Of a DNA stretch of 64,000 nucleotides, positions 25,125-52,644 are shown piece after piece. The notes beneath the pieces are model-generated. The model saw only the letters and a list, made by a program, of their open reading frames with translations, made no database searches and was not told where the DNA came from. The stretch's first letter is position 1. Each line of letters opens with the position of its first letter. This DNA is from Sporichthya polymorpha DSM 43042 (GTDB lineage: Bacteria; Actinomycetota; Actinomycetes; Sporichthyales; Sporichthyaceae). The DNA lies in the NCBI RefSeq assembly GCF_000384115.1, contig NZ_KB913029.1, forward strand, positions 1,894,907-1,958,906, written 5' to 3'. A program made the position numbers and the translations under genes.

Positions 25125-25908
25125 CCACCTCGGCGGGACGCTCGCCGACCGGCTCCAGGCCGGCCCGCTCGGGCGGGACGAGCTGACCCAGCTCGCCCGC
25201 GACCTGCTCGACATGCTGGCCCAGCTCCACGCCAAGGGCACCGTGCACCGGGATCTGCGTCCCGACACCGTCCGCCTCGACGGCGAGGGCCGGCTGCACA
25301 GCTCGAAGATCGGCACCCAGCGCGGGCCCGCTCCGAGCGGCGACGACGTCAGCGCCGACCTGCTCGCCTGCGGGCAGGTGCTCTCCGCCGCCGCGGGCCC
25401 GTACGCCTCCGCGCCGGTGCTGGTCCTGATCGGCATGCTCACCGCCGACGAGTCCGTCCTCCGTCCCGGCTCCGCGGCCGAGGCCCTCGCCCTCCTCGGC
25501 GGCGCCCCGGTCCCGCGGGCCCGGACCGTCGACGACGTCCCGTTCCCGCCGGTCGCGGCTGTTCCCGTCGCCGAACCGCCGCCGCTGTTCCCGCTCGCGG
25601 CCCCGGCCGCTGCTCCGCAAGCTCAGCCGACCCCGGCCGCCACCGAGTTGCCGCTGGCGCTGCCGACCGCCGCTCCGGTGCCGGCCGCTCCGCTCCCGCC
25701 GGAGTATCGCTACCGGCGCCGCCCGAGCGCGAAGATCGTCCTCGCCGTCGTCGGGGTGCTGCTGGCGGTCGGCGCCACCGTCGGTGTGGTCGTCGCGACC
25801 ACCGGCGGCAGCGACGACCCCGGCACCGAGATCCCCCCGCCCGCGGCGACCTCGCTCGACCAGCAGCTCTCCGACCTCGACGGCGTCATCGACACCCTCG
25901 GCGACTGA
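25114..25908 (+). CDS. Pseudokinase-like membrane protein
   Basis: A 264-residue relative of the kinase at 23272 that starts within the kinase C-lobe. The N-lobe, glycine loop and catalytic lysine are absent. HRD remains (45-47) but reads HRDLRPDT instead of HRDLKPAN, and the DFG site is replaced by LHSSKIG. Matching landmarks include GGTLADRL, LARDLLDMLAQLH and, at the end, SLDQQLSDLDGVIDTLG. A Pro/Ala linker leads to one helix at about 207-231. GTG 25114 follows GGGAGG. It cannot bind ATP in the usual way and is probably a regulatory or scaffold partner, or a decaying copy. Confidence 0.8.
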   Translation: MRTDHLGGTLADRLQAGPLGRDELTQLARDLLDMLAQLHAKGTVHRDLRPDTVRLDGEGRLHSSKIGTQRGPAPSGDDVSADLLACGQVLSAAAGPYASAPVLVLIGMLTADESVLRPGSAAEALALLGGAPVPRARTVDDVPFPPVAAVPVAEPPPLFPLAAPAAAPQAQPTPAATELPLALPTAAPVPAAPLPPEYRYRRRPSAKIVLAVVGVLLAVGATVGVVVATTGGSDDPGTEIPPPAATSLDQQLSDLDGVIDTLGD

Positions 25909-25932
25909 CGGGCCGTCAGCGCCGCACTCGCA

Positions 25933-26604
25933 TCAGCGGGAGCGGTGGCGGTCGGGGACGATCGTGCCCTTGTCGATGACGAGGATCCGGTCGCTGGCCT
26001 CCTCGTGCACCTGCTGGAACTGCTCGGCGACGAGGACGGCGACCCCGTCGTCCGCGATCTCGCGGAGCGTGGCGTAGACCGCGTCGACGACGACCGGAGC
26101 AAGGCCCTGGGACGGCTCCTCGACCAGGAGGAGCTTCGGGGCGGACATCAGCGCCCGGGCGATCGCGACCATCTGCTGCTCGCCGCCGGACAGCGTCCCG
26201 GCCTTCTGGCTCAGTCGCTCGGCGAGGACGGGGAACAGGGCGAACGCGCGGTCGAGTCCGTCGCGCTTACGGGCGCGCGGCAGGGAGGCCGCGCCCATCA
26301 GCAGGTTCTCCTCGGTCGTGAGGTTGGCGAAGATGCGCCGGCCCTCGGGGGACAGGCCGATGCCGGCGGCGACGCGGCGGTGCGGCGACCACGCCGAGAT
26401 GCCGACGCCGTCGAGGCGGATGTAGCCACCGATCACCGGGACCGTGCCGACGATCGTCTTCAGCAGCGTCGACTTGCCGGCGCCGTTCGCGCCGAGCAGG
26501 GACACGACCTCGCCGGCACGGACCTCGAGCGTCACCTTGTGCAGCACGGCCTGCCCGCTGTAGCCCGCGACCAGGTTCTCGACCGCGAGGATCGCGTCAG
26601 TCAC
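25933..26604 (-). CDS. livF: Branched-chain amino acid-type ABC transporter ATPase (LivF-like)
   Basis: A 223-residue ABC ATPase of the LivF class. Walker A LLGANGAGKSTLLK, Q loop region, signature TLSGGEQQMVAIARAL and Walker B KLLLVEEPSQGLAP are all present; the Glu before the Walker B end and the LSGGEQQ signature are intact. GTG start at 26604 overlaps the end of the LivM-LivG gene by 8 bp. It would power uptake of a hydrophobic amino acid or a related small carboxylate or amide. Confidence 0.94.
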   Translation of the reverse strand: MTDAILAVENLVAGYSGQAVLHKVTLEVRAGEVVSLLGANGAGKSTLLKTIVGTVPVIGGYIRLDGVGISAWSPHRRVAAGIGLSPEGRRIFANLTTEENLLMGAASLPRARKRDGLDRAFALFPVLAERLSQKAGTLSGGEQQMVAIARALMSAPKLLLVEEPSQGLAPVVVDAVYATLREIADDGVAVLVAEQFQQVHEEASDRILVIDKGTIVPDRHRSR

Positions 26605-28579
26605 GGACGCGCTCCAGGCCCTCGAGGTAGTCCAGCCGCGTGCCCAGGTAGCGCTGCTGCACCTCGGTGTTGGCTGCGATCTCGGCCGGCGTGCCCGACG
26701 CGAGCACCCGGCCCTCGGCGAGGACGTGGACGAGGTCGCAGCTGTCGAGCACGGCCTTCACGTAGTGCTCGACGATGAGCACCGAGAGCCCGAGGTCGCT
26801 GTGCAACCGGCGGATCAGCGAGAACATCGCCGACGACGAGGCGGGGTCGAGCCCGGCCGCGGGCTCGTCGAGCAGCAGGAGCCGCGGGCCGGCCACCAGC
26901 GCGCGGGCGATCTCGACCCGGCGCCGGGCGGAGAACTCCAGCGTCCCGACCCGTTCGTCCCAGTAGGTGTGGACGTCGAGCAGCCGCGCCGCCGCGTACC
27001 CGGCCTCCTCGGCCTCGCGCAGCGCGGCCCACGCCGACGGGCGACCCGCGACGAACGACGCGGTCCGCGCGCGCACCGACGCCCACGCCCCGCCGCAGAT
27101 GTTGTCGCCCGCGGTGAGCTCACCGATCACGCGCGTGTTCTGGAACGTCCGGGTCATGCCGAGCCGCGAGCGGTCCCACGCGTTCGTGCGGGTGACATCG
27201 CGACCGAACAGCTCGACGGTGCCGGTGTCCGGCGCGGTGAATCCGGAGACGACGTCGAACAGCGTCGTCTTGCCCGCGCCGTTGGGACCGATCAGGCCGA
27301 CCATCCGCCCGACCGGCACCTCGATGCTCGCCCCGGTCAGCGCGGAGATCGGCCCGAACGCCAGGCGCACGTCGGTGGTCCGCAGCGCGATCCCGCGCTC
27401 GGGCCGTGGCGGCAGCCAGCGCTCGAGAACCTCGAGGCACGCGGTGCGCTCGGCGGAGCTCAGGACGCTGGTGTTCTCGTCCGCCAGCCCCGCGGACTCC
27501 CGCAGCACCGCGGTCGCCATCCGCTTGCGCCGCGTCCGCTGCCGGCGCTTGCCGAACCGGCGGCGCCGCTCCAGGTCCTGCATCCGTCCGCCGACGCCGC
27601 GGGCCCCGAACAGCGCGCCGAACCCGAGCGCGACGGAGGCGATGAAACTCTGCTCGATGTCCCAGCGCTCGAGCTCGATCGGCATGACGTACAGGTAGGC
27701 CGCGACGACGATCACCGCCGCCATCGAGTCGACGCCCGCGAGGACCGGGATGCAGAGCAGCAGCAGCGAGGTCTCGACGTCCCAGCCGAGGAACAGCGGC
27801 GGCGTCACGTAGAACATCGCGCCGAGGACGCCGCCGGTCCCGGCGAGGAACCCGGCGAGGGTGAACGCCAGCACCCGGAACCGCACCGGCGGGATGCCGA
27901 GCGCCGCCGCGGACTGGCGGTTCGACCCGACGACGAGGAACGCGAGCCCGGCGGGACTGCGCCGCAGCCGGATCAGCAGCACGAGCACGACCGCCAGCCA
28001 GGCGAGGGCGAAGAAGTAGAACGTCCGGTCGTCGACGAGGTCGACGCCGAACGGCTCCGGTCTCGGGTTCACCAGCGGCGCCCCGCCGTTGCCGCCGGAG
28101 ACCCCGCCCGACAGGTAGCCGATCGGGTAGATCGTCTTCTCGATCGTCACCTGCAGGCCGAGCGTCAGGATGACGAGGTAGATCGACGGCAGCCGGCCGG
28201 AGACGAGGGCGAGCCCGGCCATGAACGCCGTGGCGATCGCGACCGCGATCAGCGCCGCGACGATCCACGGCAGGCCCTTGCCCTGGTCGTCGCGGTCGAG
28301 CCAGTTGAAGTAGTACATCGCCGAGGCGAACACCCCGGCCGAGGCGAGCGAGATCTCCCGCGCCCACCCCTGCAGCACGAGCAGCCCGAGGCCGAGGATC
28401 GCGACCGGGATCGCGGCCGTGAGCCCGAAGACCCGGTAGTCCGCCATCACCAGGCCCCACATGACGAGCAACCCGGCGAGAACCAGTGAGGCGGGACTGC
28501 TCATCGCCCGCACGACCGGGCGGGACTTCGTCTCCAGGCCGTCGAAGATGCCCGGGGCCGTGCCGGCTGGGCGGCTCAC
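26597..28579 (-). CDS. LivM permease fused to LivG ATPase
   Basis: A 660-residue fusion. Residues about 20-330 form a LivM-type permease (VLAGLLVMWGLVMADYRVFG, LVILTLGLQVTIEKTIYP, and about ten helices). After a basic linker (about 335-360, RRRRFGKRRQRTRRKR) comes a LivG ATPase: Walker A GLIGPNGAGKTTLFD near 428, TFQNTRVIGELTAGDN, EFSARRRVEIARAL as signature (LSGG replaced by EFSAR) and LLLLDEPAAGLDP. GTG 28579 overlaps livH by GTGA; the open frame further upstream overlaps livH and is not coding. Part of a complete membrane/ATPase set without a binding protein nearby. Confidence 0.93.
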   Translation of the reverse strand: MSRPAGTAPGIFDGLETKSRPVVRAMSSPASLVLAGLLVMWGLVMADYRVFGLTAAIPVAILGLGLLVLQGWAREISLASAGVFASAMYYFNWLDRDDQGKGLPWIVAALIAVAIATAFMAGLALVSGRLPSIYLVILTLGLQVTIEKTIYPIGYLSGGVSGGNGGAPLVNPRPEPFGVDLVDDRTFYFFALAWLAVVLVLLIRLRRSPAGLAFLVVGSNRQSAAALGIPPVRFRVLAFTLAGFLAGTGGVLGAMFYVTPPLFLGWDVETSLLLLCIPVLAGVDSMAAVIVVAAYLYVMPIELERWDIEQSFIASVALGFGALFGARGVGGRMQDLERRRRFGKRRQRTRRKRMATAVLRESAGLADENTSVLSSAERTACLEVLERWLPPRPERGIALRTTDVRLAFGPISALTGASIEVPVGRMVGLIGPNGAGKTTLFDVVSGFTAPDTGTVELFGRDVTRTNAWDRSRLGMTRTFQNTRVIGELTAGDNICGGAWASVRARTASFVAGRPSAWAALREAEEAGYAAARLLDVHTYWDERVGTLEFSARRRVEIARALVAGPRLLLLDEPAAGLDPASSSAMFSLIRRLHSDLGLSVLIVEHYVKAVLDSCDLVHVLAEGRVLASGTPAEIAANTEVQQRYLGTRLDYLEGLERVRD

Positions 28580-29523
28580 GCCTGCCGCCGCTCGAGCAGG
28601 AAGAACGTCTCGCGCCGGAACCGGGCCGCGATCACGATCAGCGCCAGCAGGGTGCCGGACAGCGTGATCTCGCGCGTCCCCGCGGTGACCTCGCCGAAGA
28701 ACCCGACGACCAGGGCCGTCTCGAGGATGCCGTAGACGACCGCCCCGGCGAGCGCGAGCGGCAGGCTCCGCAGCCCGCCGACGACGGCGATGAGCATCCC
28801 GCGGACCATCAGAAGCAGCAGCCCGTCGACGGGCTCGGCGACGGCGGCCGCGTACATCGCGCCGGCAAGGGCGGCGACCGCGCCGGAGACCCCGTAGACC
28901 CCGGTGCCGATCAGGCGCAGCTTCGCGCCGCACCACACGCTGGCCTCGACGTCGTCGGCGATCGCGCGGATGGCCAACCCGGTGTAGGTGCGGGACAGGA
29001 ACAGCGCGAGCGCGGCGACGAGCACGCACAGCACGACGAACGCCGCCAGGCGGTGATGCGTGACGACGACGTCGCCCACCCGGGTCCCGCCGTCCCCGAA
29101 CGGGCTCGGTGTGCTCGAGAGCCCGCCCGGGCGGATGTAGTAGCCGGACAGGTTGCCGATGACCAGCAGCCCCGCGATCGAGACGACCGTCAACGTCATG
29201 CCGGGCAGCTCGGCCATCCAGCGCGACATGACCAGCGCCCCGAACGCGACCCCGACCACCGCGCCGCCGCCGATCGTGAGCAGCAGCGCGAGCTTCGTCG
29301 CGACGATCGGATCGTTGCGCCCGAAGTCCTCCGCGGTGGTGCCGGCCGGGCCCCGCGCCAGGTAGGCGTAGGTCAGGGCGCCGAAGATCGCGATGCCGCC
29401 GTGGACGAAGGCGATGGTCCGGCTGATGCGGTAGGTGAGCACGATCGCGACCGGGAGCATGCCGTAGAGCGCCGCCACGGTCAGGCCGAGGACGACGATC
29501 TCCGGGACGAGATCCAGCTGCAC
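28576..29523 (-). CDS. livH: Branched-chain amino acid-type ABC permease (LivH-like)
   Basis: A 315-residue inner-membrane permease of the LivH family: VLGLTVAALYGMLPVAIVLT at the start and FVHGGIAIFGALTYAY, the region where LivH proteins carry the conserved 'G..N.AHG' segment, here in variant form. About eight helices. First gene of the livH-livMG-livF operon, each joined by overlaps. No periplasmic LivK is in the window, so the substrate-binding protein is encoded elsewhere. Confidence 0.92.
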   Translation of the reverse strand: MQLDLVPEIVVLGLTVAALYGMLPVAIVLTYRISRTIAFVHGGIAIFGALTYAYLARGPAGTTAEDFGRNDPIVATKLALLLTIGGGAVVGVAFGALVMSRWMAELPGMTLTVVSIAGLLVIGNLSGYYIRPGGLSSTPSPFGDGGTRVGDVVVTHHRLAAFVVLCVLVAALALFLSRTYTGLAIRAIADDVEASVWCGAKLRLIGTGVYGVSGAVAALAGAMYAAAVAEPVDGLLLLMVRGMLIAVVGGLRSLPLALAGAVVYGILETALVVGFFGEVTAGTREITLSGTLLALIVIAARFRRETFFLLERRQA

Positions 29524-29803
29524 GCGGATCGGGACCTTCCTCGAGCTGCCTCGGGGAATCTACCTGTATGTCCGGGGTGCGCCGGCTCCGTCGGAGCTCG
29601 CGCCTTGACACCGCTCCGGGCCCGGAGTGGGCTGGTCGCCGGGCACTGTCAGCGGGGCTTGATCGTTGGCGTGGTGGGAGATTCGGGCGCCGGAGCAATC
29701 CGTGGCCCGACGGACTTGCGGATTTCACTCCGGCGCAACACATCCGTGCGGTTCGCGAGCAACTCTGGAGTACGGACAGGTCGGAGGGGGAAGGAGTCTG
29801 GGC

Positions 29804-30145
29804 ATGACAGCGATGACGTGGCTAGAACGGGAGTACTGGTCCCAGCCTCGCCCCGTCGTACCCGCCTCCCGTCCGGGTGGTGCGGCGCCGGCGTTGAAGA
29901 CCGTGCCGAAGACCGCGCCGACACCCCGGTTCGAGCGGCAGGGGTCCGAGCTGGTTCTCGTGGTGCCGATCTCGGCCACCGAGGCCGCGCACGGGGCTCT
30001 GATCAAGGTGCCCGCACCGGGCACGGTCGTGCGGCTCCGGGTTCCCCCGGGGACCACGACCGGTCGCCGGTTCCGGGTTCCGCGGGTGAGCGCCCCGGCG
30101 CCGGACGGATTCGGCGACCTCACGGTCGTCGTCGAGGTGTACTGA
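29804..30145 (+). CDS. Stand-alone DnaJ C-terminal-domain-like protein
   Basis: A 113-residue protein. The first 45 residues are unremarkable; residues about 50-113 match the second beta-barrel of the DnaJ peptide-binding region: LVLVVPISATEAAHGALIKV, then VRLRVPPGTTTGRRFRVP and GDLTVVVEVY. The J domain, Gly/Phe region and zinc fingers of DnaJ are absent. ATG 29804 lies 8 bp after AAGGAG. Likely a small peptide-binding protein in the cytoplasm; cannot stimulate DnaK by itself without a J domain. Confidence 0.75.
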   Translation: MTAMTWLEREYWSQPRPVVPASRPGGAAPALKTVPKTAPTPRFERQGSELVLVVPISATEAAHGALIKVPAPGTVVRLRVPPGTTTGRRFRVPRVSAPAPDGFGDLTVVVEVY

Positions 30146-30170
30146 CCACTCCCGTTACCCAACGGACAAC

Positions 30171-30201
30171 GAACGGCCCCCGCCACCGGCGGGGGCCGTT
30201 C
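30171..30201. terminator. Bidirectional terminator hairpin
   Basis: Arms GAACGGCCCCCGCC and GGCGGGGGCCGTTC pair perfectly around ACC. The hairpin lies between two convergent genes (ends at 30145 and 30224) and can serve both. Confidence 0.85.
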
Positions 30202-30223
30202 TCATGTCTCGGCGGACCGGTCC

Positions 30224-30556
30224 CTAGTTCTGCATGTCGTCCTGCGCGTCCTCGGCCGTGTCCTCGGCCTTGTCCTCCGCGTCGTCCTTCGCGTCCTTGG
30301 CCTTCTCCTTGGCCTCCTCCGCGGCGTCCTCGGTGGCGTCCTCGGCGTCGTTCTTGGCGTCCTCCGCCTCGTCCTGGGCGTCGCCGGCCTTGTCCTCGAC
30401 CTCGTTCTGGACGTCGTCGGTCGTGTCGGTGATCTGCTGACCGACGTCCGGGTTCTCGTCCTCGTCGTCCCCGCAGCCCGCCAGCAGGCCGCTGCCGAGG
30501 ATGACGGCGGCGGCGGCGACGGCGACGGTGCGGCGGGCGAGGGGCGACCGGGGCAT
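30224..30556 (-). CDS. Acidic, repeat-rich lipoprotein
   Basis: A 110-residue lipoprotein (AVAAAAVILGSGLLAGC, lipobox LAGC). The mature chain is almost only Asp, Glu, Lys and Ala in 11-residue-like repeats (EDKAGDAQDEAEDAKNDAED), predicting an amphipathic, possibly disordered helix like LEA or apolipoprotein-type proteins. ATG 30556 follows GGAGGAA; the upstream extension to 30616 lacks a site. Role unknown, perhaps envelope protection. Confidence 0.75.
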   Translation of the reverse strand: MPRSPLARRTVAVAAAAVILGSGLLAGCGDDEDENPDVGQQITDTTDDVQNEVEDKAGDAQDEAEDAKNDAEDATEDAAEEAKEKAKDAKDDAEDKAEDTAEDAQDDMQN

Positions 30557-30671
30557 GAGTTCCTCCGAAGGGCGGGTGCGTGTCCCCGCCGGACTGCCCC
30601 GGCCGCGAGCAGTCACACCTGACTACTCCCTGGGTGTGGCCCCCTCGGCGGCGCTCCTCACGTCCCCCTGG

Positions 30672-32279
30672 TCACTTCCTCTTCGACAGGTCCCCGAGCA
30701 GCGTCTGGGCAGCGAGCTTGCCCGGGAGCGAGCACACGCCACCGGTCGGGTGCGTGCCGGCGCCGGAGAGGTAGAGACCCTTCAGCGGCGTCCGGTACCG
30801 ACCGAAACCGGGGGCGGGGCGCATCGGCCCGAACCGGGTGATCAGCGGGTCGACGTGGTACACGTTCCCGGCCGGGGCGTTGAAGCGCGCCTCCAGATCG
30901 GGGCCGCACAGCACGGTCCGCCCGATCTCGTACGTGTCGAGGCCGACGTAGTACTGGGCGGCGTCCTTGATGACCGCCTGGCCGACCTCGTGCCGGACCT
31001 GCTCCCACGGGACGACCGGGTTGACCGGCGGGATGCCGGACCACAGCCAGAAGGTGTCGCCGCCCTCGGGGGCCTGGGTCGGGTCGACCCGGCTCGGGAC
31101 GATCGAGCAGTGCACCGGCATCGGCGAGTACCACTCGCCGCGGACGGTGGTGTCCCAGGCGGCGCTCTGCTCCTCCAGCGTCGCCCAGGCGACGAGGATC
31201 CCGGTCGGGTCGAGCTTGTCCTTACGCCACTGCCGGTGCTTCTCCATCGTGATCTTGCCGCTGGTCGCGACGTTGATCTTCAGCGACGTCGCGTGGGTCT
31301 TGCGGATCGGGATGTCCTTGGCGCGCGCCTCGAGCTTGGAACCGAACGTCCCCGGCGGGAGCAGCTTGGTCAGGGTGACGATCGGGTTGCACGTCGTCAC
31401 CACGGCCTCGCGGGCGCGGATCGTCTCGCCGGACTCCAGCACCACCGCGGCGACGCGGTCGCCCTCGACCGTGAGCTCGGCGACCGGCGCGGAGAGGCGG
31501 ACCTCGCCGCCGTGCGCGACGAAGCAGGCGTGCAGCGCCTTCGGCAGGGCGGCGGTGCCGCCGATCGGCATCGCGTTCGCGACGCGCTGGACGATGCCGA
31601 GATAGATCATCGCCCAGGCGGTCATGTCGAGCTTGAGCTGCGAGAAGGCGGCCATCGCCGACAGGGCGCCCTTGGGCAGCGGGGACTCAAAGGTCTCGTC
31701 GAGGAACTCGAAGTGCGACGCCCCGACGATGTGCTTGAGGCCCCACATCTTCCGCAGGTGCGGGACGGCCTTCGCGGTCTCCTTCAGCAGCTCCTTGCTC
31801 AGCGGCCGCGTCGGGTGAACCTTCATGTACTCGATGACCGGACCCATCGCGTAGTACATGGCGTTGGACATCTCCAGCCACGCCCGCGCGTCCTTCGGGG
31901 AGAAGTACCGCAGCTCGTCGGCGGTCTTGCTCGCGTCCTTCCAGATCGCGAGTGAGCTGCCGTCAGGAGCGAGCTGGATGTGCGCCGGGTCGACCGGGAT
32001 CTCGCGCAGCCCGTACTTGTACAGCTCCAGCTCCTCCGCGACGCCCGAGAGCCGGAAGATGCCGGTGAGCTGGATCGCGCCCTCGTTGAACAGGTGGTTC
32101 GGCGCCTCCGGGAGCGTCGCGTTCGTGGCGGTCATGCCGCCGAACTGCGGCGACGCCTCGACGATCAGCACCCGCTTGCCGGCCTTGGCCAGGTAGCAGC
32201 CGGCGGTGAGGCCGTTGTGGCCCGCGCCGACGATGACGACGTCGTAGTGCCGAGAGGACTGCTGCTGCGGTGTGGTCAT
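30672..32279 (-). CDS. FAD-dependent oxidoreductase, phytoene desaturase-like
   Basis: A 535-residue flavoprotein. The N-terminal dinucleotide fold reads DVVIVGAGHNGLTAGCYLAK (about 13-32) with EAS after it, and the C-terminus has LSGAGTHPTGGVCSLPG, the second FAD motif of carotenoid desaturase and PYROXD2-type enzymes. ATG 32279 is preceded by GGAGGATG; the open frame to 32309 starts inside the promoter dyad, so I exclude it. Divergent to a TetR gene, so it is probably its target. Substrate is unknown; no carotenoid genes are nearby. Confidence 0.9.
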   Translation of the reverse strand: MTTPQQQSSRHYDVVIVGAGHNGLTAGCYLAKAGKRVLIVEASPQFGGMTATNATLPEAPNHLFNEGAIQLTGIFRLSGVAEELELYKYGLREIPVDPAHIQLAPDGSSLAIWKDASKTADELRYFSPKDARAWLEMSNAMYYAMGPVIEYMKVHPTRPLSKELLKETAKAVPHLRKMWGLKHIVGASHFEFLDETFESPLPKGALSAMAAFSQLKLDMTAWAMIYLGIVQRVANAMPIGGTAALPKALHACFVAHGGEVRLSAPVAELTVEGDRVAAVVLESGETIRAREAVVTTCNPIVTLTKLLPPGTFGSKLEARAKDIPIRKTHATSLKINVATSGKITMEKHRQWRKDKLDPTGILVAWATLEEQSAAWDTTVRGEWYSPMPVHCSIVPSRVDPTQAPEGGDTFWLWSGIPPVNPVVPWEQVRHEVGQAVIKDAAQYYVGLDTYEIGRTVLCGPDLEARFNAPAGNVYHVDPLITRFGPMRPAPGFGRYRTPLKGLYLSGAGTHPTGGVCSLPGKLAAQTLLGDLSKRK

Positions 32280-32299
32280 GCGCACATCCTCCGCCAACC

Positions 32300-32313
32300 T
32301 GATTCGCAAATCA
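32300..32313. promoter_or_regulatory. Inverted repeat in divergent oxidoreductase/TetR promoter
   Basis: TGATT-CGCA-AATCA, in a distinctly AT-rich gap between the oxidoreductase start (32279) and the TetR start (32351). Candidate TetR operator. Confidence 0.45.
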
Positions 32314-32350
32314 AGTTTGAAAGTTCATTCGTCTGTGAGATCGTGCGGGC

Positions 32351-33001
32351 GTGGAAAGAGCGGAACCTGCAGACGCGCCCAAAGAGGGGCGCCGCGAGCG
32401 CCGCAAGACCGAGGCGCGCGAGCGTCTCCTGGCGGCGGCGCGTCAGGTGCTCGCCGACGGCGGCGAGGCCAACCTGCGGATCGGCGACGTCACCGAGCGC
32501 GCCGACATCGGGTTCGGGACCTTCTACAGCCACTTCGAGTCCAAGGAGGCCCTCGTCGAGGCCGTCCTGCTCGAGGTGATGGCGAGCGTGTCCGCGATGA
32601 TCGGGACCAAGGCGCTGGAGTTCGACGACGCCGCCGAGACCGCCGCGTTCGCCTACCGCCGCTTCGTCCACTTCGCCGCCGAGCAGCCCGAGCTCGCCGC
32701 AGTGATGACCAAGCTCGAGGGCGCGGACGCGAAGTTCGAGGACTCCCTGCTCCCGTACGCGCGCAAGACCCTCGAGCGCGGCATCGAGTCCGGCCGCTTC
32801 GACATCGGGGACCTCGAGCTGGCGTTGACGTCGGTCTCCGCGGCCGGGTTCGCCGCGATCAAGGGCGTCCTCGCCGGCCGCTTCGGCCCCGACGCCGACT
32901 CCGCCGGCGCCGAGATGATGCTCCGCGCCTTCGGCGTCCCCGCCGCCGAGGCCCGCGAGATCGCCCACCGCCCGATCCCCGCGCTCGACCTCGACGCCTG
33001 A
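32351..33001 (+). CDS. TetR family regulator
   Basis: A 216-residue regulator, GTG start at 32351. The DNA-binding domain spans about residues 15-62: RRKTEARERLLAAARQVLAD then IGDVTERADIGFGTFYSHFE and SKEALVEAVL. The remainder is helical and rich in Ala. It is divergent to the FAD oxidoreductase; 27 bp after its stop the MTHFR-like gene begins, possibly in the same transcript. Confidence 0.9.
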   Translation: MERAEPADAPKEGRRERRKTEARERLLAAARQVLADGGEANLRIGDVTERADIGFGTFYSHFESKEALVEAVLLEVMASVSAMIGTKALEFDDAAETAAFAYRRFVHFAAEQPELAAVMTKLEGADAKFEDSLLPYARKTLERGIESGRFDIGDLELALTSVSAAGFAAIKGVLAGRFGPDADSAGAEMMLRAFGVPAAEAREIAHRPIPALDLDA

Positions 33002-33027
33002 CCCTGCGCGAGGACTAGGTTCCTCCC

Positions 33028-33819
33028 GTGCCTGACGTACCTGCCGAGTCGTTCCGGCTGATCTGCGAGGTCGAGCCGCCGACGCGGCCGGACCTCAAGC
33101 ACGTCCGCCACCAGATCGGGGTGCTCGCGCCGATCGCGGACGCGTTCCTGATCCCGGACAACCACATCGGGCGCGCGACGGTGTCGAGCATCGCGGTCGC
33201 CCACGAGGTCGAGGCGATGGGCGGCCGGTCGGTGGCGTGCGTCAACGCCCGCGACCGGAACCTGCTCGGGTTCCGCCGCGACCTGCTCACCGCGGCCGCG
33301 TACGGGGTCGACCAGTTCCTGTTCGTCCACGGTGACAAGCCGACGGCCGGCGACCGGACCAGCGAGCTCACCGTGGGCGCGATGCTCGAGGAGGCGCGTT
33401 CCACGACGGACCGCCAGGCGTTCGCCGGGGTCGGCCCGTTCCGCCTCGGAGTCACCGCCGGGCTCGGGCGCCGGTTCCCGCGCTGGAAGCAGCAGGCTGA
33501 CTTCGTCTTCGTCCAGGTGAGCTACTCGGTCGACGCCCTGCTGCGGTGGCGGGACGAGAACCCCGTCGACCTGCCGGTCTACGCCGGGGTGATGGTGCTC
33601 GCCAGCGTGACCATGGCCGAGCGGCTCCGGGCGTCGATCCCCGACATCCACATCCCGGCCGAGCTCGTCGAGCGCGTCCGCCAGGACCCGGCTGCCGGCG
33701 TGGACGCCGCCTGCGAACAGGTCCTCGCCCTCCGCGACAGCGGCGCCTTCGCCGGCGTCCACCTCATCCCGGTCAGTCGCTACCGCGAGGTGAGCGCCCG
33801 CCTTGAGGGCGCCTTCTGA
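33028..33819 (+). CDS. Methylenetetrahydrofolate reductase-like protein
   Basis: A 263-residue TIM-barrel protein related to MetF: FRLICEVEPPTRPDLKHVRH at the start holds the catalytic Glu region, QFLFVHGDKPTAGDRTSE is the GD.P loop, and ADFVFVQVSYSVDALLRW the conserved Q motif. The protein is shorter than typical MetF (about 290-300) and the usual FAD-binding sequence is divergent, so it may be one of the MTHFR-like paralogs of unknown activity that act in one-carbon pathways. GTG start. It is the last chromosomal gene before the island. Confidence 0.82.
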   Translation: MPDVPAESFRLICEVEPPTRPDLKHVRHQIGVLAPIADAFLIPDNHIGRATVSSIAVAHEVEAMGGRSVACVNARDRNLLGFRRDLLTAAAYGVDQFLFVHGDKPTAGDRTSELTVGAMLEEARSTTDRQAFAGVGPFRLGVTAGLGRRFPRWKQQADFVFVQVSYSVDALLRWRDENPVDLPVYAGVMVLASVTMAERLRASIPDIHIPAELVERVRQDPAAGVDAACEQVLALRDSGAFAGVHLIPVSRYREVSARLEGAF

Positions 33820-33825
33820 ACCGGG

Positions 33826-34044
33826 TCAGACGTCGACGATCGTCGCGGTCGACCCGATGGCGTCGAGCAGCTGGGTGATGTCGGGCCGGTCGCTGGTCAC
33901 GATCACCGCGTCGCTGGGCGCCGCGTCCACGACCGCGCCGGCGACCAGGTCCGAGCCGGCCGCCCGAGCCAGAATCGCGCCGACCCGATGAGCGGCCGCC
34001 TCATCGAGGGGGATGACCTCGCACGCCGGTTGCGACAGCCTCAC
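33826..34044 (-). pseudogene. PIN-domain toxin remnant (C-terminal half)
   Basis: 72 codons that align with the last half of the PIN-domain protein at 37101: CEVIPLDEAAAHRVGAILAR versus CEVVPLDEAGAHRVGSVLAR, and VTSDRPDI..LLDAIGSTATIVDV in both. The N-terminal half with the first catalytic Asp is missing, so it is not a working toxin. It abuts the stop of the next PIN gene by a GTGA overlap, as if joined by deletion. Confidence 0.7.
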
Positions 34045-34454
34045 CCGGACAACTCGCCTCGGCCGGGACTCGCGACCGGCAGGCCCATACTTTGGCCCGC
34101 CTCAAGGAGGCGCTGGTCGTAGGTGACGAAGGCGTCCAGTCGCTTCCCGAAGACCGCACTCGCGGTCGCGAGGTGAATCGCGTCAGGACCGCGCAGGTTC
34201 GGATCGGGATGTGCAGCTGCGGTGGCGCGAACGACGTCGTCGATCTCGTACCGGGCGAGGCGGGCGATCACGGCGGGCACAGCACCGAGCAGCGCCGGCT
34301 CGGTGCGGCGCAGGGCGCGCGGAAGCTCCACCTCCACCAACACCGAGGTCACCCACGGCGCGGGGGAGCGTGCGTCCAGCCAGTCCGCCAACGCCTCGGA
34401 CTCCGGCTCCGGGCGCACCAACTTCACCAGGGCCGCGGTGTCCAGGTAGAGCAT
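34041..34454 (-). CDS. PIN-domain toxin (VapC-like), copy 1
   Basis: A 137-residue PIN ribonuclease: MLYLDTAALVKLVRPEPESE supplies the first catalytic Asp (Asp5), VTSVLVEVELPRAL the Glu region, and PDAIHLATASAV plus FVTYDQRLLEAG the further acidic residues. Such toxins cut tRNA or other RNA. It overlaps its antitoxin by ATGA. A copy at 49482 differs at only a few residues. Confidence 0.92.
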   Translation of the reverse strand: MLYLDTAALVKLVRPEPESEALADWLDARSPAPWVTSVLVEVELPRALRRTEPALLGAVPAVIARLARYEIDDVVRATAAAHPDPNLRGPDAIHLATASAVFGKRLDAFVTYDQRLLEAGQSMGLPVASPGRGELSG

Positions 34455-34726
34455 CAGTACCGCTCGTCGTCACGGAGTCGGCGCAGTAGGTCTCCGGCCT
34501 CGTCCTCGGTGCGCACGGGCCCGGAGGGGCGGGGCGCCGGCCCGGACGTGGTGGCCGGACGCAGCCGTCCCGTGCCGATCAGCTCGGCCAAGGGGTGGTT
34601 CTCCGCCGGGATCAACCGCGCGATCACGGTGCCGCGTTCGGTTACTTCGATCGCCTCGCCACGCTTGACCCGTGCTAGCACCCCGGCGGTGTTCTGGTTG
34701 AGCTCACGCACCGGCACCTCAGCCAT
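34454..34726 (-). CDS. Phd/YefM-type antitoxin, copy 1
   Basis: A 90-residue antitoxin. The N-terminus MAEVPVRELNQNTAGVLARV and AIEVTERGTVIARLIPAE is the Phd/YefM DNA-binding fold; the C-terminal 40 residues (Pro-rich, then TEDEAGDLLRRLRDDERY) should wrap the toxin. Start ATG 34726. The promoter just upstream has two TAGTAC repeats, probably its own operator. Nearly identical to the gene at 49895. Confidence 0.9.
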   Translation of the reverse strand: MAEVPVRELNQNTAGVLARVKRGEAIEVTERGTVIARLIPAENHPLAELIGTGRLRPATTSGPAPRPSGPVRTEDEAGDLLRRLRDDERY

Positions 34727-34736
34727 GGCCCGAGTG

Positions 34737-34755
34737 TAGTACAAAAACCTAGTAC
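34737..34755 (-). promoter_or_regulatory. TAGTAC direct repeats upstream of antitoxin, copy 1
   Basis: TAGTAC at 34737-34742 and again at 34750-34755, 13 bp apart, ending 11 bp before the antitoxin ATG. The same arrangement precedes the copy at 50178-50196. Typical place for autoregulation by the toxin-antitoxin complex. Confidence 0.5.
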
Positions 34756-34783
34756 ATGGGTCAGCGGCAATGGCGACTGGGGG

Positions 34784-34804
34784 CCAAGACGCCGGGTGAC
34801 CCTG
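34784..34804. repeat. Candidate left att repeat of decayed element
   Basis: CCAAGACGCCGGGTGACCCTG, matching 39386-39406 with one mismatch (16 bases identical at 34789-34804). Confidence 0.5.
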
Positions 34805-34915
34805 TGCCGCTCCGGCGGACGTCGACGGACGACCACGAATGAGACCGGAATGAGACCAGACCGGTCGCGGTGGTGATCCCGCGCCCTGGTCGGCGGCGCG
34901 GCCTACACTCAAGAC

Positions 34916-35161
34916 GTGACCAGCGAGGCGCATGACCTCCTCCAGCACGCTCTGGCGCTGCCCCCCGGTGAGCGGGCCGGCGTCGCCGCGGTGCTGCTGG
35001 CGAGCCTGGACGGCGAGGCCGACGACGACCCGCAGCTCGTCGATGACGCCTGGGCCTCGGAACTGGCTGCTCGCGCGCGCCGCGTCGTGGACGGCGACTC
35101 GGTCGGCACTCCCTGGCAAGACGTCCGCGACGGCCTGGCCGCGCGTCTCGCCGAGCGGTGA
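34916..35161 (+). CDS. Addiction module antitoxin (unstable antitoxin family)
   Basis: An 81-residue helical protein of the short addiction-module component type: SEAHDLLQHALALPPGERAG with ALLASLDGEADDD and ending SVGTPWQDVRDGLAARLAE, which matches the usual E.SW..V...L pattern of ParD-like unstable antitoxins. GTG start at 34916. It overlaps the downstream ParE-containing gene by 4 bp (35158-35161), the standard antitoxin-first arrangement. Confidence 0.85.
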   Translation: MTSEAHDLLQHALALPPGERAGVAAVLLASLDGEADDDPQLVDDAWASELAARARRVVDGDSVGTPWQDVRDGLAARLAER

Positions 35162-36465
35162 AGCGCAGCGTCCTCTTCGAGTCGGAGGCCGCTGCCGAAC
35201 TCACCGACGCGGCGCACTGGTACGACGATCAGCATCCCGTCCTCGGGTCGGCCTTCCTTGCGGCGGTCGAGGCTGCGGTCCTCGGCATCGACCTTTGGCC
35301 CGATGCGGCGCCTTTGGTCTCTGGCCTGCCGGGAGATCTGCCGGTGCGTCAGGCCGCGGTTCGCCGGTTCCCGTATCGGGTGGCCTACCTGGTGGTCGAT
35401 GACGTGATCCGCGTCCTCGCGGTCGCGCACACGCGGCGCAAGCCGCGCTATTGGACCGACCGCACCGGCGCGGTGTCCGCTGCCCCGCCGCTCAGCGCAC
35501 TGATCACCGTCCTGTCCGTGCCCGATTGCCCGAACGCGTCGTTGTTGGTCGCCCGCCTGCGTGAGGCGGGGCCTGGGCGCACACCGGCGATCGACGTTGT
35601 CGTCGTGGAGGACGAGGCCGAGGCGTGGGCGTGGGGGATGTGCGGATCACCGACGTTGCTGGTGGACGGAATTGACCCCTTCGCCGGGGACGGTGCCCAA
35701 CCGTCACTATCGTGCCGTCTCTACCCAGGCGCGGACGGGCGAATGTGGGGTGCACCGAGCGTCGAGGAGCTGCGAGCGGTGATCGCTCCACGGCCCGCCG
35801 AGCCAACGGGCACGACCTCTTTGCTCGACCCGGTTGTGCGCGGTGGCCAGGGCCGGTTGGCTCCGACGGATGCAGGGATGCGCGCTGTGCAACAGGCGGT
35901 TCTTCGCTCCCTAGCGTCCTCCGGAACATTGCCGAACGACCGGGCACTGGACGCGGCGGCCGGGCCGGGGCGCAGCGGGCGTGCGGTCCTAGCTGCGCTC
36001 GCAGAGCAAGACTTCGTTTCCATCGACGACGGCGGTGTCCGTGCGGCCTACCCGTTCTCCCTGCGGCAGACCCGGCATCAGGTGGCGATCGAGGGCGGCC
36101 CGACGGTGTGGGCGATGTGCGCGATCGACGCGCTCGGCGTGGGACCCATGCTCGGCCGAGCGACGGCCATCACTTCCTCCGATCCCGTCAGTGGCCAGAC
36201 GATCATCATCACCGCGACGCCGAACGCCGCGACCGAATGGGAGCCAGCCGGCACAGTGGTCCTCGTCGGCCGTCGCGCGGAGAAGGGGCCGGCCTCCGCG
36301 GTCTGCTGCGACGTCATCAACTTCTTCGCCTCAGCCCACACCGCCGCCCGCTGGGCAGCCTTGCACCTCGAAGCGCCCGGCGCCGTTCTCGGTCGTGCCG
36401 ACGCGATGGAAATCAGCCGAGCGACCTTCGGTCACCTGCTGGAGGCTGAGCCAGCTCCAGGCTGA
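35158..36465 (+). CDS. ParE toxin fused to thioredoxin-like/alkylmercury lyase (MerB) protein
   Basis: A 435-residue three-part fusion. Residues 1-102: ParE/RelE toxin (SEAAAELTDAAHWYDDQHPV, PYRVAYLVVDDVIRVLAVAH). Residues about 115-205: thioredoxin-like part (ITVLSVPDCPNASLLVARL, WGMCGSPTLLVDGIDPFAG). Residues about 230-435: MerB, with VWAMCAIDALG placing Cys321 and Asp324 like Cys96/Asp99 of MerB, and VCCDVINFF with Cys383/384 like Cys159. A lone relative without ParE is at 44569. An internal GTG at 35472 could start the MerB part separately. MerB breaks the C-Hg bond of organomercurials. Confidence 0.85.
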   Translation: MKRSVLFESEAAAELTDAAHWYDDQHPVLGSAFLAAVEAAVLGIDLWPDAAPLVSGLPGDLPVRQAAVRRFPYRVAYLVVDDVIRVLAVAHTRRKPRYWTDRTGAVSAAPPLSALITVLSVPDCPNASLLVARLREAGPGRTPAIDVVVVEDEAEAWAWGMCGSPTLLVDGIDPFAGDGAQPSLSCRLYPGADGRMWGAPSVEELRAVIAPRPAEPTGTTSLLDPVVRGGQGRLAPTDAGMRAVQQAVLRSLASSGTLPNDRALDAAAGPGRSGRAVLAALAEQDFVSIDDGGVRAAYPFSLRQTRHQVAIEGGPTVWAMCAIDALGVGPMLGRATAITSSDPVSGQTIIITATPNAATEWEPAGTVVLVGRRAEKGPASAVCCDVINFFASAHTAARWAALHLEAPGAVLGRADAMEISRATFGHLLEAEPAPG

Positions 36466-36609
36466 TCAAGGCGGGTCGCCGCAGCGGCCGCCCCAGGTTC
36501 CGGTATCAGCAGCGGGGTCGTGCGCACGTAGATAACCATGCCGATGACCTCGACCAGCGTCTGGGTGACTACCACCGCGGCGGCGAGGGTGAAGGCGTCT
36601 GGCAGGGCC
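36432..36609 (-). pseudogene. Possible arsenic-resistance transporter remnant (C-terminus)
   Basis: In one minus-strand frame, residues read ALPDAFTLAAAVVVTQTLVE, then IGMVIYVRTTPLLIPEPG, which resembles the last helix and tail of ACR3-like/bile-acid symporter arsenic transporters. The frame upstream turns into the complement of the relaxase remnant, so at most 60 residues survive. It overlaps the end of the fusion gene. Weak assignment. Confidence 0.35.
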
Positions 36610-37097
36610 ACGGAGTGCGGCTTCCGGCGCGCTACGTCGCCGAGCATGTCGAACTCGGCTATGCCAGCACCGTCCATCGCGCGCAGGGCGCCACCGTCGA
36701 CACCGCCCACCTCGTCGCCGGCCCCGGTATGGACCGCCAATCCCTCTACGTCGCAATGGCCCGCGGCCGCGAGGCAAACCACGCCTACATACCGCTCGAC
36801 GTCCCCGCTGAAGAGCACCTCAGCGAGCCGTACGTGACTGGCCGTCAGATTCTTGACCACGCGCTGGCCACCGACGGCCGCGACCACTCCGCCACCGTCA
36901 CCATGGGCCGTCGGCAAGATGCGGCGTTCTCGCAGCAGCGACTGGCGTCGATCCGCGAGACTCTGTCCGGCGCCAAATTGCCCGAGGTCGCCGCCGAAGT
37001 CGATCGGCTCATCGCGCTCCGCCGCGCAGATCGCGCCGCCCCACATTCAGCTACTCGGCCATCACCCGGGAAGGGCCACGACCCGATCGGCCGGTGA
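36606..37097 (+). pseudogene. MobF relaxase C-terminal remnant
   Basis: About 160 codons homologous to the helicase end of the relaxase at 46255: LPARYVAEHVELGYASTVHR, then AQGATVDTAHLVAGPGMDRQ and LYVAMARGREANHAYI versus YVGMTRGREANHVYV. This is the last conserved helicase motif of TraA-type relaxases; relaxase and Walker parts are missing. It shows that the decayed element once carried its own mobilization protein. Confidence 0.8.
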
Positions 37098-37100
37098 GGG

Positions 37101-37478
37101 TCAGACGTCGACGATCGTCGCGGTCGAACCGATGGCGTCGAGCAGGCGGGAGATGTCGGGCCGGTCGCTGGTCACGATCATCGCCTCGGCAGATGCCGCG
37201 TCGACGACAGCGCCGTCGGCGAGGTCGGTGCTGGACGCACGGGCCAGGACCGAGCCGACCCGGTGCGCTCCTGCCTCGTCCAGGGGAACGACCTCGCAGC
37301 CGCGCAGAAGGCGCCGTAAAGACGCCTGCCGGGGTGACCGACTGACCTGGGCCACCACCGGTGCAGGCACTGCGGGGATGATGCCGCGCTGCAGGCGGAC
37401 CTTGTGGTCGGCCCAGAACTCCCGGTCGTTGCGATCGGCGGCGATCAGAGCCCCAGCGTCGTAGACGACTTCGCTCAC
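37101..37478 (-). CDS. PIN-domain toxin
   Basis: A 125-residue PIN protein: SEVVYDAGALIAADRNDREF holds the first catalytic Asp, VVAQVSRSPRQASLRRLL the middle, and DGAVVDAASAEAMIVTSDRPD the late acidic residues. GTG 37478 overlaps the antitoxin stop (GTGA). A truncated relative lies at 33826. The longer open frame to 37565 is the antitoxin complement. Confidence 0.87.
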   Translation of the reverse strand: MSEVVYDAGALIAADRNDREFWADHKVRLQRGIIPAVPAPVVAQVSRSPRQASLRRLLRGCEVVPLDEAGAHRVGSVLARASSTDLADGAVVDAASAEAMIVTSDRPDISRLLDAIGSTATIVDV

Positions 37479-37732
37479 GCCGAGCGGCGTCCGGCCGTGC
37501 CGGTCACGCGCTGGCGGGCGGCTTCGAGCTCGGCCTCGGTCAGCTGACCGTGCTCGGCCTCCCACTCCGCGACCGCGGCCAGGCCGTCGCGGACCGCCAA
37601 GGCCCGCCGTGCCGCGGCGGTCATCCAGGCGGACACGCTCGAACCCTCCGCTTTCGCGGCCTCCAGGACCTGTTCGTAGACGTCCGGGTCAACGGTGATG
37701 GCGAGTTTCGGCGCCGGGTTCCCACGAGGCAT
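37475..37732 (-). CDS. Ribbon-helix-helix antitoxin
   Basis: An 85-residue CopG/ribbon-helix-helix type protein: the strand KLAITVDPDVYEQVLEAAKA followed by SSVSAWMTAAARRAL is the classic DNA-binding core, and the C-terminal EAELEAARQRVTG helix would bind the toxin. It is first in the operon with the PIN toxin and should repress it. Confidence 0.88.
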   Translation of the reverse strand: MPRGNPAPKLAITVDPDVYEQVLEAAKAEGSSVSAWMTAAARRALAVRDGLAAVAEWEAEHGQLTEAELEAARQRVTGTAGRRSA

Positions 37733-37877
37733 GGACCTAAGTCTACTACCAAACTCCTACCGATTCAGGGTCAGTGAATCGGTCGCTCGCGTCGATTGCC
37801 TCGCCCTTCGTACCCACATATACGTGCGGACCTGGCCGAATACAGGCGGGCCGGGCCGGGGTTGGGGAGGAGTTCAG

Positions 37878-38117
37878 ATGCATCCACAGGCAGCGAACGC
37901 GATCTCGATTGAGGCAGCGCCAACGCCCAGAATCGTCCTGACGGTCGAGCAGGCCGCCGAGTCGCTCGGCATCGGCCGCACGCTGATGTACGAGCTGATC
38001 AGCACCGGAACGGTGGAGTCAGTCCTGATCGGCAGACTTCGCCGCATCCCCGCAGGTGCGCTTGCCGACTACGTTGAGCGACTCCGCGCCGCGAACCGAC
38101 ACGAGGGAGCTGCCTGA
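37878..38117 (+). CDS. Excisionase-like helix-turn-helix protein (decayed element)
   Basis: A 79-residue AlpA/MerR-fold DNA-binding protein: VLTVEQAAESLGIGRTLMYE, then LIGRLRRIPAGALADYVERL, the standard excisionase layout. ATG 37878 follows GGGGAGGAG. It overlaps the integrase start (38117), as in the intact neighbour, and would direct excision. Confidence 0.87.
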   Translation: MHPQAANAISIEAAPTPRIVLTVEQAAESLGIGRTLMYELISTGTVESVLIGRLRRIPAGALADYVERLRAANRHEGAA

Positions 38118-39364
38118 TGAGCGAGCCCCTCACGCGCCGGCCGAACGGCGCCTCGTCCACCTACTTGGGCGCCGACGGCTATTGGCACGGCCGCATCACC
38201 GTCGGCATCCCGGACGGTGGCAAGCCGGATCGCCGCCATGTCCGCGGCAAGACCCAGGCAGTCGTCATCCGCAAGGTGCGGGAGCTCGAAAGGCCCGGGA
38301 TGCGGGGTCGGTGCGCAAGGCCGGCGACGCCTGGACGGTTGAGGCCTGGCTCACGCATTGGGTCGAGAACATCGCCGCCGCCCACGTGCGTCCGAACACC
38401 CTCTCCGCATACCGGGTCGCCGTGAATGTCCACCTGATACCCGGAATCGGACGGCACCGCCTCGCGAAGCTCGAACCGGAGCACCTGGAGAAGCTTTACG
38501 CCCGCATGATTGCGAACGGCAGCAAGCCCGCGACCGCCCACCAGGTGCACCGGACCATCCGCACCGCCCTCAACGAGGCACAGCGCCGCCGGCACCTGGT
38601 GACGATCAACCCCGCCACCATCGCCAAGGCGCCGACCCTGGGCGATGACGAAGTCGAGCCGTACTCGGTCGACGAGGTCAAGCACCTCCTGGTCGCCGCA
38701 GCCGACCGCCGGAACGCCGCGCGCTGGGCGGTCGCGCTGGCTCTCGGACTCCGCCAGGGCGAGGCGCTGGGCCTCAAATGGACGGACGTGGACCTGGAGG
38801 CCGGGCTGCTGACCGTCCGGCGAGCCCGCCAACGGCCTCGATGGAAGCACGGATGCGACGAGCCGTGCGGGCACCCGCGGGCCGGGGACTGCCCGCAGCG
38901 GATAGCCCTGCGCGACGACACGGCCGACACGAAGTCCCCGCGCCGGCCGCCGCACCGTCGGGCTGCCGGATGAGCTGGTCGCCGTCCTCCGCCGCCACCG
39001 CGCGCTGCAGGCGGCCGAGCGCATCAAGGCCGGGCAGCTCTGGACTGACGGCGGGTGGCTGTTCGCGACCCCAACGGGGCAGCCGGTCAACCCGCGCACC
39101 GACTACACCGACTGGAAGCGGCTCCTGAAGGACACCGGCCTCCGGGAAAGCCGCCTGCACGATGCCCGCCACACGGCCGCGACCGTCCTCCTGCTGCTCG
39201 GGGTGTCCGAGCGCGCCGTGATGGGCCTGATGGGGTGGTCGAACACCGCGATGGCCGCGCGCTACCAGCACATGACCGGAGCGGTGCAGCGCGACGTCGC
39301 GGATCGTCTCGGCGTTCTGCTCTGGGGAACTGAGACCGCGGAGGGCATCGCCGAGGGCAAATGA
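38117..39364 (+). pseudogene. Tyrosine integrase with two compensating frameshifts
   Basis: An integrase of about 415 codons read through three frames. Frame change 1 at about 38291 (GAAAGG where GAAAAGG restores KARDAGSVRKAGDAW), change 2 at about 38936 (TCCCCG where one C too many; TCCCG restores SRAGRRTVGLPDEL). Catalytic residues survive: Arg in LALGLRQGEALGLKW, HxxR in LHDARHTAATVL, Tyr in AARYQHMTGA. Both shifts sit in homopolymers, so sequencing error is possible, but as given the gene is broken. Confidence 0.85.
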
Positions 39365-39435: not shown

Positions 39436-39461
39436 GCTGGCGGTGGCGGTGGGATTTGAAC
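39436..39461. repeat. attL, tRNA 3'-end fragment
   Basis: 26 bases from GCTGGCGG to ATTTGAAC identical to 52619-52644. After this point the match to the tRNA stops (CTCTGG against CCCACGG). Confidence 0.9.
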
Positions 39462-44090: not shown

Positions 44091-44486
44091 TCACCTCGCG
44101 AGGATCGTGCAGATGTCCGCCTCAGCGCAGGTGTCCGCATCCACGGCGGCGGCCCGGTCGGCAAGGTTGCGCAGAACGGCCCGTGTCGCTCGCAGTTCGA
44201 TGATGCGCCGATCGATGTCGCGCAAGTGCCGCGCGATGAGACGCCTCACCTGATCGCAGGGAGCGACGCCTGCGTCGCGAAGCTCAAGGACGGAGCGAAG
44301 CTCCGCGAGGGTGAGGCCGGCGGACTGCGCGTCACGGATGAACTTCAGCCGGGCGGTGGTGTGCTCCGGATAGTCGCGATATCCGCCGGCGGTCCGGGGC
44401 GGTGGAGAGAGAAGGCCGCTCTGCTCGTAGAACCGGATCGTCTTGGTCGTCAACCCGGTAGCGGTGGCGAGGGCCCCGATCTGCAT
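44091..44486 (-). CDS. merR: MerR family metal-responsive regulator
   Basis: A 131-residue MerR protein: MQIGALATATGLTTKTIRFY, then EQSGLLSPPPRTAGGYRDY, the canonical helix-turn-helix, followed by the dimer helix. Three cysteines (APCDQVRR, DADTCAEADICTIL) can bind a soft metal; their spacing differs from classical MerR (Cys-x5-Cys at the end), so the ligand may be Hg(II) or another thiophilic ion. ATG 44486; the frame beyond is open but antisense. Divergent to merB with a MerR-type promoter between. Confidence 0.9.
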   Translation of the reverse strand: MQIGALATATGLTTKTIRFYEQSGLLSPPPRTAGGYRDYPEHTTARLKFIRDAQSAGLTLAELRSVLELRDAGVAPCDQVRRLIARHLRDIDRRIIELRATRAVLRNLADRAAAVDADTCAEADICTILAR

Positions 44487-49452: not shown

Positions 49453-49481
49453 CCGACCTCAGACGCCCGGAGCCGGCAGCC

Positions 49482-50167: not shown

Positions 50168-50177
50168 GGCCAAAGTG

Positions 50178-50196
50178 TAGTACAAAAATCTAGTAC
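50178..50196 (-). promoter_or_regulatory. TAGTAC direct repeats upstream of antitoxin, copy 2
   Basis: TAGTAC at 50178-50183 and 50191-50196, 13 bp apart, matching the first copy in sequence and distance to the ATG. Confidence 0.5.
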
Positions 50197-50223
50197 ATGG
50201 TGCAGGGTCGGGACAGGTGGCCA

Positions 50224-52618: not shown

Positions 52619-52644
52619 GCTGGCGGTGGCGGTGGGATTTGAAC
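52619..52644. repeat. attR, within tRNA-Ser(CGA) 3' end
   Basis: The 26-base direct repeat of 39436-39461; its last 21 bases are the tRNA T-arm and acceptor end. Confidence 0.9.

Follow-up and report, generated by a model that had tools for sequence, protein, structure and literature searches.

A ParE toxin gene that continues in frame into a thioredoxin-like and MerB chain at the edge of a mobile-element block in Sporichthya polymorpha

Within a 64,000-nucleotide stretch of the genome of Sporichthya polymorpha DSM 43042 (contig NZ_KB913029.1, positions 1,894,907 to 1,958,906; termed here the window), the gene for a ParE-type toxin does not end where the toxin ends, and instead reads on into a chain made up of a thioredoxin (Trx)-like domain and a domain of the organomercurial lyase MerB. 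The gene consists of one unbroken frame, from a GTG start to a TGA stop, whose product comprises, from the N- to the C-terminus: (i) the ParE domain, (ii) a short linker, (iii) the Trx-like domain, and (iv) the MerB catalytic domain (Table 1). Because this frame runs on for 331 codons past ParE, the toxin is not a separate small protein here, unlike its counterpart in the congener used for comparison (termed here G002; the genome under study is G000). The original prediction, which was made from the letters of the window, described an in-frame fusion of ParE to Trx-MerB with an antitoxin gene at 34916, and both stand: the frame is open over all of its 435 codons, Pfam recognizes ParE_toxin and MerB domains within it, and an open reading frame with a PF09720 domain lies directly upstream. 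That prediction also had the free-standing relative at 44569 starting exactly where the ParE part of the fusion ends; this is off by the ten linker residues, for which alignment to both the ParE and the trx-MerB families revealed no counterpart in either.

Table 1. Features of the fusion gene and of its surroundings, in window coordinates
Feature	Position	Strand	Basis or remark
Second block absent from G002, from MTHFR-like gene to antitoxin	33820..34812		PIN/Phd pair and fragment of the 37101 protein
Conserved toxin-antitoxin promoter region	34813..34915	+	About 90% identical to G002
Antitoxin, putative addiction module component, 81 aa	34916..35161	+	PF09720 (Pfam)
Whole fusion gene, 435 aa	35158..36465	+	ORF reading and Pfam/NCBIfam profiles
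ParE toxin domain, residues 1-104	35158..35469	+	PF05016; 90% DNA identity to free parE of G002; 8c26 closest solved structure
Linker AVSAAPPLSA, residues 105-114	35470..35499	+	Ala/Pro-rich; contains GTG 35473
Thioredoxin-like domain, residues 115-206	35500..35775	+	NF049942 below cut-off; Cys124/Cys186 conserved
MerB catalytic domain, residues 300-425	36055..36432	+	PF03243; alignment to 1s6l; Foldseek match of predicted model
Block missing from G002, from parE codon 104 to the shared tail	35470..39354		Comparison with G002; 3.9 kb
Tyrosine integrase remnant	38117..39363	+	Middle part out of frame with both ends
26-bp copy of tRNA-Ser 3' end, attachment-site repeat	39436..39461	+	Repeat match
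Divergent merR-type regulator of free copy 44569	44091..44486	-	Pfam/NCBIfam; MerR-type operator from 44503
Free-standing trx-MerB relative, 321 aa	44569..45534	+	ORF and Pfam
Same 26 bp at 3' end of tRNA-Ser(CGA)	52619..52644	+	tRNA at 52621-52708, - strand

The ParE-Trx-MerB fusion is a real and correctly read gene fusion, so far found in one genome and with a well-resolved origin. That sequencing or assembly joined two separate genes is highly improbable: although the fusion occurs in a single assembly, the window lies inside one 5.5-Mb contig and contains no N, the junction DNA is found at a single place in the genome, and there is no near-identical copy of either half by which the assembly might have been misled.

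The N-terminal half matches the ParE_toxin profile over residues 5-95, with a score of 27.3 bits within the fusion and of 31.4 bits when the domain is taken alone (Pfam cut-off 23), and all ten of the aligned ParE relatives are members of the same Pfam family. Its closest clear relative of solved structure is M. tuberculosis ParE2; matches of this half to haemoglobin structures were set aside as chance similarities between short helical stretches. In the predicted model of the fusion protein the ParE half has a pLDDT below 50 and is unreliable, so no structural claim is drawn from it. As in an ordinary two-gene toxin-antitoxin operon, the end of the antitoxin gene and the beginning of the fusion gene share 4 nucleotides, GTGA, in which the stop codon of the one runs into the GTG of the other, and homologous antitoxins are found directly upstream of ParE in other related loci. 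The locus resembles known parDE modules with a PF09720 antitoxin and a PF05016 toxin (the free copy of G002; M. tuberculosis ParE2, 8c26) in the order antitoxin-toxin, in this overlap, in possessing a complete PF05016 domain that extends to the RxxRRKPxYWxxR motif at its C-terminus, and, as regards the G002 copy, in location. It differs from them in that the toxin frame continues into Trx-MerB and in that the family-invariant Gly28 is a valine.

Relative to G002, dN/dS is 0.16 for the antitoxin and 0.19 for the ParE part, and these low values indicate that both have been constrained over most of the divergence between the two genomes. In a leave-one-out comparison, the Gly28Val replacement is the only departure of the ParE half from the 17 positions that are otherwise invariant in the family. 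On a tree nearly all of the amino-acid change in ParE falls on the branch of the fusion (0.106, versus about 0 for G002); parsimony can place only three of the nine changes (at positions 4, 28 and 59) on the lineage of the fusion, which gives a hint of a relaxing toxin and is too few for a test. There is, then, a hint that the ParE half of the fusion may be a weakening toxin; alternatively, given its dN/dS, it may be fully active and under selection.

In the C-terminal half, the MerB profile (PF03243) scores 116.4 bits over residues 300-425 (Pfam cut-off 27), and the fold predicted for the protein matches MerB in Foldseek searches, in which matches to the thioredoxin fold are weak. The catalytic residues are kept, as had been predicted: in the alignment to a MerB of solved structure (1s6l), Cys321, Asp324 and Cys383/384 stand opposite Cys96, Asp99 and Cys159/160. 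Compared with canonical MerB (R831b; 1s6l/3f0o), with which it shares Cys96/Asp99/Cys159 and the fold, the fusion has an added N-terminal Trx-like domain and an aspartate (Asp342) at the position of canonical Cys117, and this aspartate is invariant in the trx-MerB family. This places the fusion in the '117alt' variant class, whose activity had not yet been assayed as of PMC8261052, so that lyase activity of its MerB half is likely rather than certain. The NCBIfam MerB equivalog models NF033555 and NF009710 are missed (77 and 74 bits, against cut-offs of 200 and 193), and the free trx-MerB relatives likewise fall below both cut-offs.

For the Trx-like domain, the thioredoxin-like DF family model NF049942 (NCBIfam) gives 42.8 bits at residues 116-206 against a cut-off of 70, which amounts to similarity only. 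Across an 11-sequence alignment, Cys124 and Cys186 of this domain are invariant, and are plausible mercury ligands to judge from their conservation. The Trx-like domains of actinobacterial MerB-like proteins in general share these two cysteines (in fusion numbering) and have no CxxC motif; such domains may have a role in mercury relay.

The layout of Trx-like domain followed by MerB is that of the actinobacterial trx-MerB proteins, which are annotated as 'alkylmercury lyase family' and which include the free copy at 44569, proteins of Streptomyces and Rhodococcus plasmids, and those of L025-L033. The free copy is 52-53% identical to the fusion, aligning with it from residue 115/116 onward. All family-invariant positions are kept in the fusion: by leave-one-out comparison, and leaving aside the starting methionine, its Trx-MerB half breaks none of 42 positions at which the twelve other members of the family do not vary. 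Two features of the free proteins are missing from the fusion, a start codon belonging to trx-MerB itself and the merR gene that usually lies next to it.

The 1.3-kb frame of the fusion is moreover clean, whereas its mobile-element neighbors are truncated or frameshifted, which suggests, without proving, that selection maintains it; the intactness could instead reflect recency. These observations bear on the possibility that the fusion is a recent accident, that neither half is beneficial and that it will decay. Its presence in one genome only, its surroundings of mobile-element debris, and the potential redundancy of one MerB copy among several speak for such a neutral passenger, but both the unbroken family-invariant positions and the clean reading frame beside a frameshifted integrase speak against it, and we regard it as unlikely. 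The genome is unusually rich in organomercury genes: five MerB copies, including that of the fusion, occur at 205910, 533855, 1857151, 1930961 and 1940042 of contig C1, two of which adjoin genes that score over the MerA cut-off (532186 and 1855059). Since four MerB copies remain besides that of the fusion, along with the two MerA genes, organomercury detoxification in this organism does not depend on the fusion gene.

The origin of the joint can be traced through comparison with G002, which is collinear with the window over 25540-33819 (91% identity) and again over 34813-35469 (90%), the latter segment comprising the promoter, the antitoxin gene and parE. In G002 the parDE pair follows the same MTHFR-like gene as in the window, and its parE is free, encoding 113 residues and ending in ...RTGWGDEPNASE-stop. 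Homology between the two genomes ends sharply at 35469, that is, after codon 104 of the fusion, and restarts at 39355. Because other ParE relatives finish within a few residues of this codon, the whole toxin domain has been kept. Homology to trx-MerB begins at 35500, where codon 2 falls in the free relatives; the MerB start codon is lost, with the GTG CTG ATC of the free relative L003 corresponding to GCA CTG ATC in the fusion.

The original prediction attributed the joint to loss of a stop codon at the border of two genes. It arose instead by DNA rearrangement, as the DNA that follows codon 104 has no relationship to what lies 3' of the free parE in G002; of the 312 bp of that flank, only a 25-bp match is found elsewhere in G000. 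Two further routes were considered and rejected. The junction has no 12-mer in common with the remainder of the island, while a repeat of the tRNA-Ser end does occur at 39436, and this speaks against a site-specific insertion at the parE 3' end as the direct cause. Nor does an exchange by homologous recombination involving the window's two merB copies account for the joint: they are only about 67% identical at the DNA level, and the upstream region of the free copy is absent from the fusion. The nine-residue tail of parE in G002, WGDEPNASE (L099, 10026-10055), which starts at the very codon of the fusion joint, was not seen in other ParE relatives; since the G002 tail is thus also unlike the family, rearrangement at this boundary may have taken place in each of the two lineages. 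With two genomes compared, the 3.9-kb block was either gained in G000 or lost in G002.

This block contains, besides trx-merB, a fragment of a relaxase/helicase gene, the gene for an RHH protein with a PIN-like neighbor, and a frameshifted tyrosine integrase gene, which is either a pseudogene with two frameshifts or the result of sequence errors. The relaxase/helicase C-terminal fragment (36621-36790) has many relatives (67-80% DNA identity) across G000 and its congeners. Upstream of the antitoxin lies the second block that is absent from G002. Its genes for a PIN toxin and a Phd-type antitoxin (34015-34759) recur at 49455-50200 as a 92% identical copy, one copy lying outside and the other inside the tRNA-bounded element described below. 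The same block carries, at 33826-34044, a 72-residue fragment with 83% DNA identity to the 3' portion of gene 37101-37565, the product of which is PIN-like by eye and has no Pfam match; the likeness suggests an earlier duplication or replacement.

The 39.4-52.6 kb segment, which is bracketed by the 26-bp repeat of the tRNA-Ser 3' end, has an intact integrase gene (51327-52529) beside the tRNA gene and a TrwC/TraA relaxase gene (46186-49452). It is an integrated mobile element, part of which is common to G002. Between the free trx-merB gene and the relaxase gene, a short tandem array of CGCCCCAC (an 8-bp unit) occupies 45651-45730. Insertions lie in layers across this region, which is an integration hotspot at tRNA-Ser; it is the border of one such insertion that forms the fusion joint.

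The only recognizable expression signals of the fusion are those of the toxin-antitoxin operon, which are conserved in G002. By eye, a TACACT at 34904-34909, six nucleotides ahead of the GTG of the antitoxin gene, looks like the -10 box of a leaderless transcript. For the free proteins the arrangement is another one: in 10 of the 13 free full-length trx-MerB relatives compared, merR lies directly upstream (divergently in seven of these 10, going by coordinates), and a MerR-type operator (CTTGACCTTCC...) precedes those whose upstream DNA was inspected. Between 30000 and 40000 of the window no match to MerR was found.

Leaderless or Shine-Dalgarno (SD)-independent starts are common in actinobacteria, and one frame might therefore yield two products, ParE (or the entire fusion) and a Trx-MerB protein translated from an internal start. 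The original prediction had proposed such a start at a GTG placed at 35472, the correct coordinate of which is 35473, and this codon does lie only nine codons ahead of where the free relatives begin. It has no SD signal, however: its anti-SD duplex energy, -3.0 kcal/mol, equals the local median, as compared with -7.3 at the start of the free merB gene (44569), and candidate starts at codons 115-130 are worse still. Better SD-like sites (codons 78-83) lie within ParE, the start codon of MerB itself is gone, and the ParE frame has no closing stop. Separate synthesis of Trx-MerB from GTG 35473 or another in-frame codon is hence distinctly improbable. The simplest expectation from the arrangement of the genes is that a single polypeptide would be made by translational coupling to the antitoxin.

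The search for homologs with the same fusion, which the original prediction had proposed as a check, found none in any of the collections covered. Absence from all other genomes, which that prediction had listed among the grounds for its refutation, is thus what these collections show, and it makes the fusion a singleton, though not an unreal one. Whole-protein searches of 98 relatives and of 396 genomes across the phylum (about 490 genomes), a GTDB pattern scan (which reaches close relatives only) and a search of 72,556 plasmids, where no record covers 80% of the query, all failed to reveal a second fusion. Nor did IMG/VR contain one; it held one weak relative of ParE and none of trx-MerB. 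A MerB profile search of 394 members of the class showed only expected architectures in the five long frames inspected. The fusion was thus not seen to recur in two independent genomes, by which a conserved gene fusion is recognized. Among the papers covered, a literature search found no description of ParE with MerB.

Each half does have precedents in longer chains, inasmuch as multidomain RelE/ParE toxins and fusion of MerB to MerA are already known. In Gerdes 2025 (PMC11980606), multidomain members of the RelE/ParE superfamily have, as does the present fusion, a RelE/ParE-fold domain in a longer chain beside an antitoxin gene. The forms presented there include toxin-antitoxin fusions and fusions to PIN-like or membrane domains, and the paper nowhere contains the word 'mercury'. 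In MerBA, an organomercurial lyase-mercuric reductase (plasmid records H26-H31), MerB is likewise part of a multifunctional single chain; its partner there is a pathway enzyme, MerA, and the pairing is functional, whereas in the fusion the partner is a toxin.

Might the pairing of toxin and lyase nonetheless be a functional one, with the toxin modulated by the lyase part as the original prediction had suggested? The tether could make the lyase addictive, or mercury on Trx-MerB could alter toxin activity or antitoxin binding, in which case the protein would act as an organomercury-sensing toxin. Both halves and the antitoxin have been kept, with low dN/dS for toxin and antitoxin, and a C-terminal attachment could, by analogy with M. 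tuberculosis ParE2, affect the state of the toxin: the C-terminal residues of ParE2 are required for toxicity and sit in a groove occupied by the antitoxin (PMC10899793). A useful coupling should recur, though, and no second occurrence was found in any collection searched; it is in the ParE half, moreover, that departure from the family is seen (Gly28Val), and the model, unreliable in its ParE part, gives no evidence of contact between the halves. We accordingly regard a coupled device of this kind as quite unlikely. Its more specific form, in which mercury on Trx-MerB would change how active ParE is or how it binds the antitoxin, with the operon thereby detoxifying organomercury while tying its own retention to it, we consider very unlikely.

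As no other genome searched has the fusion, an accident confined to one lineage, by which a detoxification gene came under a new promoter, is the most likely account of it. In the fuller form of this reading, to which we give moderate preference, the fusion would be an accidental but intact one at a mobile-element scar; the toxin-antitoxin promoter would drive its expression as a single chain, in which the lyase is kept and the toxin is held by its antitoxin and perhaps weakened. The comparison with G002 shows an ancestral chromosomal toxin-antitoxin pair, still free there, that lost the last codons of parE where, inside the tRNA-Ser hotspot, a mobile-element block with trx-merB was joined to it in frame at codon 104, removing the start codon of MerB. 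What follows from this may be pictured thus. Transcription from the toxin-antitoxin promoter, with translation coupled to that of the antitoxin, would give a single ParE-linker-Trx-MerB chain. The antitoxin would bind the ParE domain as usual, thereby both neutralizing the toxin and repressing the operon, and the MerB half would serve as an organomercurial lyase for which Cys124 and Cys186 are plausible Hg(II) acceptors. Expression of Trx-MerB would now proceed without induction by MerR, and ParE would be mainly a tolerated, possibly weakening, N-terminal part.

If the fusion is only an accident of one genome, then it amounts to little beyond a clear case of how DNA accretes at a tRNA hotspot. 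Comparison with a congener has nonetheless caught it at a stage at which its parts can still be identified: a free toxin at the same locus, the scar of a mobile element and free relatives of the enzyme. It also provides a natural C-terminal extension of a ParE toxin, which deserves notice given that the C-terminus of M. tuberculosis ParE2 is needed for toxicity (PMC10899793). More generally, it illustrates a route by which a cargo gene can be captured by a toxin-antitoxin promoter, such that induction by metal is exchanged for the autoregulation of the toxin-antitoxin operon, and by which the captured gene would become hard to lose while the antitoxin gene has to be retained.
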